From: Anaerolineae bacterium
GTDB lineage: Bacteria > Chloroflexota > Anaerolineae > Aggregatilineales > Aggregatilineaceae
NCBI GenBank assembly: GCA_018432315.1
Contig: JAHDLB010000016.1
Span: forward strand, 62,001-126,000
Direction: 5' to 3'
Length of the DNA: 64,000 bases
In this document: piece after piece, positions 41,932-44,094 of the stretch
Position numbering within the stretch: the stretch's first letter is position 1
Layout: the number at the start of each line of letters is the position of its first letter
Notes under the pieces: generated by a model
The model's input: the letters and a program-made list of their open reading frames with translations, nothing else
Told to the model about the DNA's origin: nothing
Databases searched by the model: none
Made by a program: the position numbers and the translations under genes

Positions 41932-41960
41932 TTGACAACCGGCGCATTTGGATCGAAAAT
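41932..41960 (+). promoter_or_regulatory. Promoter of the mgtE-rdgB operon
   Basis: A consensus TTGACA (41932-41937) is followed after exactly 17 bases by GAAAAT (41955-41960, four of six matches). Predicted start near 41967 gives a leader of about 160 bases before mgtE. Confidence 0.6.
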
Positions 41961-41966
41961 AGCCGC

Positions 41967-42122
41967 GGTTCCACCCATTTGGTAGAGATGAGCGATGGAA
42001 AGCGACATTCACTTATCTGACCTGGGCGCAGCGGCCCAGGCGACCCCAACCAATCGGATAACGTAGGCTCTCCGGACCGCCCTCTCTGCGCGCCTCCGCG
42101 AGGGCCCACCATCACGGAGGCG
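41967..42122 (+). promoter_or_regulatory. mgtE 5' leader with mutually exclusive hairpins, candidate riboswitch-like element
   Basis: The SD of mgtE (GGAGG within 42115-42122) can pair perfectly over 8 bases with CGCCTCCG at 42091-42098, hiding the ribosome site. That same CCTCCG lies in the loop of an alternative perfect hairpin, GCCCTC (42079-42084) with GAGGGC (42100-42105). The two folds cannot coexist, which is the layout of a translational on/off switch. Further upstream CCTGGG (42021-42026) pairs with CCCAGG (42035-42040). I do not find the conserved sequence of the known M-box. The ligand, if any, is unknown; magnesium is the obvious guess from the gene. Confidence 0.5.
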
Positions 42123-42127
42123 TTGTC

Positions 42128-43477
42128 ATGGAAACCCCCATCCTCGATGCCATCTTGCTGCGCCTGCGCGCGGCACTCGAACGCGACGATCTGGCCGGCG
42201 CTGCGTCGATCATTGCCGGGCTTCGCGCGCCCGATCAAGCCAATGTGTTCGCCGATCTAGGCGATCGCGACCAACGTGCGCTGTTGCCAGAGCTGACCCC
42301 CGAAACCTCCGCCGACATCCTCGAAAAACTGGACGAGGCCGAAGTGGCCGAGTTGGTGGCCGATTTGTCGACTCAAACCCTGATCGAGATCGTCGACGAG
42401 ATGGAGCCGGACGAAGCCGCCGACCTGCTGGGCGATCTGGCGCCGCACCAGGCCGAGGCGGTGCTGGCCGGGCTGGACGATCCCGACGAGGTTCGCCCGC
42501 TGCTGCTCCACCCGGACGACAGCGCGGGCGGCCTGATGACGTCCGACTATCTGGCACTGCGCCGGCACATGACCGCCGCCGACGCCATTCGCGCCATTCG
42601 CGAGTGGCAGCCGGAAACCGAATCGATCTATTATCTCTTCGTGGTGGACGCGCGCGGCAAGCTGTGCGGCGTGGTGAGCCTGCGCCAGCTCGTCGTGGCC
42701 GACCCGGCAACGTTGATCGCGACGATCATGGATCCGGACGTGATCTCGGTGACGGTCGGCGTCGATCAGGAGGAATGCGCCCGGCTGATGTCGCACTATG
42801 ACCTGCTGGCGCTGCCGGTGGTCGATACCGACAATGTGCTGGTGGGCGTCGTGACGATCGATGACGTGGTGGACGTGCTGGTCGAGGAAGCGACCGAGGA
42901 CATCCAGCGTTTCGGCGGCGCGTCGCCGTTGGAGCGCTCGTACCTCGACAGCTCGGTGCAGTGGGTCATGCGCAAGCGCATTAGCTGGCTGGTGCTGCTG
43001 TTCGTGACCGACAGCCTGACCGGGACCGTCCTGCGCCATTTCGAGGACGAGCTGGCGACGGTCGTCGCGCTGTCGTTCTTCGTACCGCTGCTCATCGGCA
43101 CGGGCGGCAACTCCGGCTCGCAGACGACCAGCACGATCATTCGCGCGCTGGCAGTGGGCGATGTCCGCCTGGGGGACGGCCTCAAGGCGCTGTGGCACGA
43201 AACGCGGGTCGGCTTTCTGCTGGGGGCGGCGATGGGCGTGCTCGGGCTGATCCGCGCCTTGACGTGGGGATCGTCGATCGAGCTGTCGGTCACGGTTGGC
43301 GTCACCCTGCTGACGATCATCCTGTGGGCCAACATCCTGGGATCGCTTCTGCCGCTGGTGGCGACGCGGCTGCGCATCGACCCGACGGTTGTTTCCGGCC
43401 CGGTGATGAGCACGCTGGTCGACGTGACGGGCCTGTATATCTATTTCTCGCTGGCACGCATCATTATGGGGTTATGA
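42128..43477 (+). CDS. mgtE: Magnesium transporter MgtE
   Basis: A magnesium channel of the inner membrane, 449 residues. An N-terminal superhelical domain (residues 1-130, with MEPDEAADLLGDLAPHQAEAVL) is followed by two CBS domains (about 135-255) that sense cytosolic magnesium. Five transmembrane helices follow from about residue 285. The pore signature PLLIGTGGNSGSQTTS is intact. The ATG at 42128 has GGAGG eight bases upstream, a site that lies in a potential hairpin. The stop codon overlaps the start of rdgB (ATGA), so the two are translated from one message. Length and motifs are normal for the family. Confidence 0.96.
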   Translation: METPILDAILLRLRAALERDDLAGAASIIAGLRAPDQANVFADLGDRDQRALLPELTPETSADILEKLDEAEVAELVADLSTQTLIEIVDEMEPDEAADLLGDLAPHQAEAVLAGLDDPDEVRPLLLHPDDSAGGLMTSDYLALRRHMTAADAIRAIREWQPETESIYYLFVVDARGKLCGVVSLRQLVVADPATLIATIMDPDVISVTVGVDQEECARLMSHYDLLALPVVDTDNVLVGVVTIDDVVDVLVEEATEDIQRFGGASPLERSYLDSSVQWVMRKRISWLVLLFVTDSLTGTVLRHFEDELATVVALSFFVPLLIGTGGNSGSQTTSTIIRALAVGDVRLGDGLKALWHETRVGFLLGAAMGVLGLIRALTWGSSIELSVTVGVTLLTIILWANILGSLLPLVATRLRIDPTVVSGPVMSTLVDVTGLYIYFSLARIIMGL

Positions 43478-44094
43478 TGACACTACTCTATGCGACCGGT
43501 AACCCGGGGAAGGTGATGGAGCTCCGCAAGATCGTCGCGGTCCTGGGGCTGGAGATCGTCGCACCGCACGAGATCGGGCTGGCGCTCGATGTGCCGGAGA
43601 ACGGCGACAGCCTGGAAGCCAACGCCGCCGCCAAAGCAGCGGCCTACGTGGAACGCCTGGGCGATCCGGACGTGATCGTGCTGGGCGACGACACCGGCGT
43701 CGAGATCGACGCGCTGGGCGGCGAGCCGGGGATTCACGTCCGGCGCTGGATCGGGCGGCGCATGACCGACCAGGAGATCCTCGACACCTGCCTGGCGCGG
43801 ATGGCGCACGTTCCACCCGGCGAGCGCGGGGCACAGTTCCGCACGGTGTTCGCCGTGGGGCAGGTGGGCCGCCCGATCGCGCTGTTCGACGGCACGCTGC
43901 GCGGCGAGATTTTGCCCGAGGCCGACCCGCTGCGGATCGAGGGCTTCCCGTTCGAGTCGATCTTCTACGTGCCGGACTGGGGCCGGCTGCTGGGCGAGGT
44001 GTATCATCTGCCGCCGGCGGAGAAGATGCGCTTCGTCACCCACCGCGAGCGCGCGCTGCGCCACGCGCTGCCGTATATCCGCAGCCTGATCTAG
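43474..44094 (+). CDS. rdgB: Non-canonical purine NTP pyrophosphatase (RdgB/HAM1-like)
   Basis: Members of this family hydrolyse dITP, dXTP and XTP to the monophosphates and so keep damaged purines out of nucleic acid. The 206-residue protein has the N-terminal LLYATGNPGKVMELRKI, then ENGDSLEANAAAKAAAY and LGDDTGVEIDALGGEPG, which carry the metal and substrate residues. The C-terminal HRERALRHAL is a weaker version of the usual SHR motif. The spacing PGIHVRRWIG differs from the usual PG.YSARY..G, so substrate preference could differ. Starts at 43474 and 43477 (ATGATG) are both possible. The stop codon overlaps that of the convergent gene within one CTAG. Confidence 0.85.
   Translation: MMTLLYATGNPGKVMELRKIVAVLGLEIVAPHEIGLALDVPENGDSLEANAAAKAAAYVERLGDPDVIVLGDDTGVEIDALGGEPGIHVRRWIGRRMTDQEILDTCLARMAHVPPGERGAQFRTVFAVGQVGRPIALFDGTLRGEILPEADPLRIEGFPFESIFYVPDWGRLLGEVYHLPPAEKMRFVTHRERALRHALPYIRSLI

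Follow-up and report, generated by a model that had tools for sequence, protein, structure and literature searches.

The M-box (ykoK leader, RF00380) controls mgtE from its 5' leader in response to Mg2+. In Salmonella, mgtQ is an 8-aa upstream ORF (uORF) located between mgtC and mgtB and controlling a P-type ATPase; its acidic codons reduce translation of the uORF, and a stem between regions 2 and 3 then frees the mgtB ribosome-binding site (PMC8092293). In the mgtL-mgtA leader of E. coli and Salmonella, which is EttA/bL31 dependent, the acidic codons 2 and 4 of mgtL (EPDP motif) destabilise ribosomes in low Mg2+, and bL31 counteracts the destabilisation of ribosomes on acidic leader peptides (PMC11282234, PMC11552253). 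The mgtE motif of Thioalkalivibrio, in which the Shine-Dalgarno sequence (SD) of an mgtE leader lies in a hairpin, is presented as a strong riboswitch candidate; the accessible part of that report describes it from Thioalkalivibrio only and mentions no uORF, and by this description it is set apart from the leader reported here (PMC11109978). In the open-licence literature, no description of an mgtE leader peptide, nor of a leader peptide from Chloroflexota, was found.

The window, i.e. the whole stretch of 64,000 nt of Anaerolineae (Chloroflexota) DNA analysed, contained an mgtE gene at 42128..43477, on the plus strand like all window features given below, encoding a protein of 449 aa with the Pfam domains MgtE_N, CBS, and MgtE, the sole MgtE of the genome. 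As claimed in a preliminary description of this DNA, the leader was preceded by a TTGACA promoter-like site of sigma-70 type (TTGACA - 17 nt - GAAAAT, 41932..41960) scoring 10/12, against 0.1 expected from shuffling. Promoter-like sites scoring at least 9/12 were found within 100 nt 5' of the uORF in 27 of the 46 relatives described below, whereas shuffled sequences gave a mean of 3.6 and a maximum of 7. A few bases 3' of mgtE, on the same strand, lay a gene for a Ham1/RdgB-like NTP pyrophosphatase (the two genes spanning 42128-44094), and the switch may govern both.

The leader contained a uORF at 41995..42066, a feature absent from the preliminary description, which encoded the putative leader peptide MESDIHLSDLGAAAQATPTNRIT, ended with TAG (42064-42066), carried acidic residues at E2 and D4, and was preceded by a weak SD (GAG); an ATG at 41987 could possibly open a shorter, overlapping ORF. 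Among the upstream regions of MgtE homologues drawn from named genomes and from 396 genomes of the same class, a short ORF was located at a fixed position in the mgtE leaders of Anaerolineae, and its start and stop were homologous in 46 of them (e.g. MEDGSASSSKGHKSRPLPANRIA, MDEIKPEDGPPSSRKGHLSRLRPANRIV, MDDISASSILGQLSRQKSTNRIL, and MNEKAEPGGSHRQMPPLSTE, each followed by a stop codon). In these 46 leaders the start codon was ATG in 20, GTG in 20, and TTG in 6, the stop codon was TAA in 27, TAG in 16, and TGA in 3, and frames +1 and +2 over the uORF were closed in 42 and 41, respectively. Codon 3 encoded D/E in 41 and codon 2 D/E/N in 43 of the 46; at codon 3, position 1 was G in 42 and position 2 was A in 44, with a nearly random third base (C16, A14, T9, G7). 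Counted by a fixed rule that was drawn up after the family had been seen, uORFs with an acidic start and an SD were present in 36 of 117 Chloroflexota mgtE leaders, versus 3.7 +/- 1.9 in dinucleotide shuffles. Third-position bias across the whole uORF was not significant (62/166 changes, p 0.28); thus, selection on the peptide is concentrated at its start, and the evidence for coding consists of codons 2-3, the placement of start and stop, and the reading frames. Past codons 2-3 the peptide is weakly constrained, much of the conservation of the uORF being at the RNA level. Such conservation at the nucleotide level was observed for the motif AAYNNNATA beside the uORF stop, present in the window as AATCGGATA (42052..42060) and kept even out of the uORF frame (among the relatives L009, L027, L128, L133, L139, and L152); the motif is hence an RNA-level signal, for which a model based on the peptide alone gives no account. 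Its out-of-frame copies also led us to reject the idea that the uORF ends in a conserved arrest peptide (NRI).

Reading the window leader directly, CGCCTCCG (42091-42098) is perfectly complementary over 8 bp to CGGAGGCG (42115-42122), which contains the mgtE SD GGAGG, and GCCCTC (42079-42084) is perfectly complementary over 6 bp to GAGGGC (42100-42105), forming a competing hairpin with the anti-SD inside its loop. Both pairings had been pointed out in the preliminary description together with a further hairpin upstream, which is present within the uORF as P1 (CCTGGGC/GCCCAGG, 42021-42027/42034-42040). On this basis and by covariation in relatives, the 3' part of the leader was divided into region 2 (anti-anti-SD, 42068..42084, including GCCCTC), region 3 (anti-SD CGCCTCCG plus GAGGGC, 42091..42105), and region 4 (CGGAGGCG with the mgtE SD, 42115..42122; helix paired in 94% of cells). 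Region 2 began directly 3' of the uORF stop, with a weak pairing register starting 2 nt past it. When the single sequence was compared with composition shuffles, the SD hairpin had a z of -3.2 and the competing stem one of only -0.7, while the z of -1.5 for the fold of the whole leader was uninformative by itself; these statistics are modest, and what goes beyond chance is the conservation and covariation in relatives. The 2:3 stem of the window, at -10.1 kcal/mol, was weaker than 3:4 at -16.0 kcal/mol, and no recognisable copy of the 1:2 stem was present in the window leader; with a weaker 2:3, an unclear 1:2, and a weak uORF SD, the window's copy is a diverged member of the family.

In the relatives, four segments recurred, with mutually exclusive pairings 1:2, 2:3, and 3:4: region 1 close to where the uORF ends, region 2 just past the stop and typically CCCCCGG, region 3 as the anti-SD (CCTCCGGGGG), and region 4 as the SD (CCCGGAGG). 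In a partner-swap test, cognate partners bound better than swapped ones for 3:4, 2:3, and 1:2, with none of 20,000 permutations as good, and with GC-matched partners the p values were 0.004, 0.0008, and 0.0007, respectively. Covariation by pair counting was 0.271 versus 0.211 for shuffled sequences in an unfitted alignment, and 0.255 versus 0.180 (0/500) in an alignment fitted to the model, in which slid pairings gave 0.06-0.10. Compensatory changes were observed in P1 (e.g. AU/GC/CG/UA at one pair) and in 1:2, and for 2:3 swaps of sequence were directly visible, as CCCCUGG:CCAGGGG and UUCAGAGG:CCUCUGGA. RNAalifold on a MAFFT alignment detected the SD hairpin only; the remaining stems emerged only with the partner-swap test and a covariance model. 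Beside mgtE in three loci (L088 of genome G278, L016, and L010), repeat-like inserts split or replaced the leader element, the one in G278 apparently breaking the SD hairpin.

The covariance model of the whole element, R1, matched 41987..42130 with 51.9 bits (E 1.9e-10), the window's leader being one of the 33 sequences from which R1 was built. R1 elements were found in 42 of the 396 class genomes, almost always 5' of mgtE, the matches including one beside a more distant mgtE left out of model building (L231). When 400 genomes were drawn from across the phylum, 4 matches were obtained, and the one outside the class was at mgtE too. A second match in the genome of the window (17 bits, E 1.25) was dismissed as noise. 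In two genomes, G015 and G080, neither of which had an MgtE match at E 1e-60, the element was located about 200 nt upstream of corA (L229, G015:C39:34885-35042; L230, G080:C133:5264-5421), with uORFs starting MDDESASRS. The adjacent CorA proteins possessed the GMN motif; the gap between the SD of the element and corA is unexplained. Because the element also precedes corA, a gene for a non-homologous Mg2+ transporter, the inferred link to Mg2+ is strengthened. Two further copies (L225, G013:C5:282626-282775; L227, G254:C583:8105-8238) preceded an ABC transporter operon for a two-part permease and an ATP-binding protein, in L227 after a truncated MgtE remnant; this transporter is possibly an uncharacterised Mg2+ importer.

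The Rfam search of the leader proposed in the preliminary description gave no family matches, with nothing meaningful at gathering or permissive thresholds in the window or at 20 related loci. The absence of M-box sequences, noted there by eye, was borne out, as the RF00380 model had no match in the window, at the 20 related loci, or elsewhere in the genome; as a positive control, the same model detected M-boxes at 10 of 20 mgtE loci outside Chloroflexota, mostly in Bacillota. The enterobacterial mgtA leader (RF01056), part of the Rfam library, likewise had no match in the window leader or the 20 related loci. The element resembles the M-box in being a 5' leader of mgtE with a presumed response to Mg2+, but differs in having no match to its model and in never sharing a genome with it: M-boxes occurred in 27 of the 396 class genomes, none of which also had the element, whereas chance alone would predict about 2.9 genomes with both, phylogeny being uncontrolled in this figure. 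In two Lederbergia leaders (L049 and L053), a uORF with an acidic start (MMDEDPDN and MDDEPDNN at the N-termini) was located 3' of a strong M-box and 5' of mgtE, and two Mg2+ controls may thus act in series. In metagenome-assembled genomes of Bacillota, M-box-less mgtE leaders (L042, L058, and L062) had uORFs starting MDGDPGS with good SDs 5' of them, in RNA unlike the Anaerolineae element.

The translational switch with mutually exclusive SD pairings first suggested for this leader is supported, since the 2:3 and 3:4 stems covary in related mgtE leaders, as the covariation test proposed with it showed, and no known riboswitch was recognised; that is, neither a lack of stem covariation or conservation nor a confident match to a known riboswitch, the findings named in advance as contradicting it, was obtained. 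We propose, with a probability of about 0.6, that translation of mgtE is attenuated by its leader according to the progress of a ribosome on the uORF at 41995-42066, in response to Mg2+. On translation of the uORF to its stop, the terminating ribosome would mask region 2, leaving region 3 to pair with region 4 and mgtE OFF. Pausing or drop-off of the ribosome at the acidic codons near the uORF start would let region 2 capture region 3 ahead of SD transcription, turning mgtE ON. The precedents of MgtL and MgtQ suggest that the signal may be low cytoplasmic Mg2+, weakening the ribosome on the acidic nascent chain, and so reducing uORF translation and raising synthesis of the transporter.

The placement of the stop fits this attenuator: region 2 started at a median of +1 nt past the uORF stop, the exceptions being uORFs that read on through region 2, so that a terminating ribosome would always cover it. 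When 41 leaders were modelled at the stage preceding synthesis of the SD, anti-SD capture by region 2 came to 0.65 without a ribosome, and 0.70 with a ribosome at codon 4 versus 0.17 with one at the stop, a contrast partly by construction, as a masked region 2 cannot pair. Capture was larger with the ribosome at codon 4 in 37 of the 41 (0.57 vs 0.23 in the window). At equilibrium, the modelled cost of opening the SD was 10.5-10.8 kcal/mol with the ribosome on the last two sense codons, against about 7.5 kcal/mol when it stood 5-9 codons upstream of the stop; that these positions are only about 3 kcal/mol apart counts against the attenuator. So do the non-significant third-position bias, the out-of-frame copies of AAYNNNATA, and, in the window, the weaker 2:3, the unrecognisable 1:2, and the weak uORF SD.

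With a short ORF 5' of a Mg2+ transporter gene and acidic early codons, the leader is, judging by sequence, a candidate mgtL/mgtQ-type attenuator. It shares with mgtQ-mgtB a short uORF with acidic residues near its start, apparent control of translation of a Mg2+ transporter, and the same topology of stems, 1:2 and the SD-hiding 3:4 versus 2:3 (PMC8092293); the likeness is one of topology between different phyla, and the Anaerolineae uORF differs in its length of about 20-35 aa, its location in a 5' leader, and its presumed control of MgtE (CorA in two genomes). As in mgtL, acidic codons are found at positions 2 and 4 in the window (E2, D4) and efficient translation of the uORF would go with the OFF state; unlike mgtL, which acts by Rho-dependent transcription termination, the leader has an SD-sequestering hairpin, and its prolines are less regular. 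bL31 is encoded in the genome.

Among the alternatives, a new metal-sensing riboswitch survives best, though we consider it unlikely: P1, the AAYNNNATA loop, and the 1:2 hairpin would bind Mg2+ or another ion and shift the balance between 2:3 and 3:4, with the uORF incidental or secondary. RNA-level conservation with compensatory changes in P1 and 1:2, the tie of the element to Mg2+ transporters, and the retention of AAYNNNATA out of frame in several members agree with it, and this motif, being conserved as RNA and unexplained, leaves room for a direct RNA sensor. However, an aptamer would not be expected to show interchangeable start codons, retention of D/E at codon 3 despite its free third base, or a uORF stop at a fixed place relative to region 2; moreover, the conserved nucleotide core is small, lacks the multi-stem junction typical of ion riboswitches, and matches nothing in Rfam. 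With the uORF conserved, its codons 2-3 acidic, and its stop at a set position, the translating ribosome is a more likely sensor than an RNA aptamer, and the suggestion of a new RNA class, in the sense of a riboswitch, was for the same reason not upheld. We regard as improbable a uORF encoding an arrest peptide that stalls close to the NRI-stop end on sensing a different signal, be it an antibiotic, an amino acid, or some other ligand of the nascent chain. N-x-I is common at the uORF's C terminus, but it is sometimes out of frame and has a free middle codon, and hence does not represent peptide-level conservation. The modelled SD-opening cost is lower when a ribosome sits about 5-9 codons upstream of the stop, but the acidic codons are at the start of the uORF and the downstream genes encode Mg2+ transporters. 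Least credible is an absence of sensing, in which the SD hairpin, very stable in the window (-16 kcal/mol), only couples mgtE translation to that of the uORF, as short uORFs commonly do, or serves as an RNA thermometer or constitutive damper, because the conservation and covariation of 2:3 and 1:2 require an alternative structure and a static hairpin would keep neither.

If the ribosome-read attenuator is correct, a translating ribosome would serve as a magnesium sensor in a deep-branching phylum, and would do so for MgtE, a transporter family for which the M-box is regarded as the main control. Considering the Anaerolineae mgtE/corA attenuator together with the similar M-box-less uORFs at some Bacillota mgtE genes, it is tentatively suggested, as a conjecture we hold with less than even confidence, that Mg2+ sensing via destabilisation of ribosomes on acidic leaders is a widespread and repeatedly evolved alternative to the M-box rather than an enterobacterial speciality. 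The attenuator itself, if correct, would represent convergent evolution of the MgtL/MgtQ principle, and R1 combined with an acidic-start uORF would provide a handle for unrecognised Mg2+ transporters, including the ABC transporter of L225 and L227.
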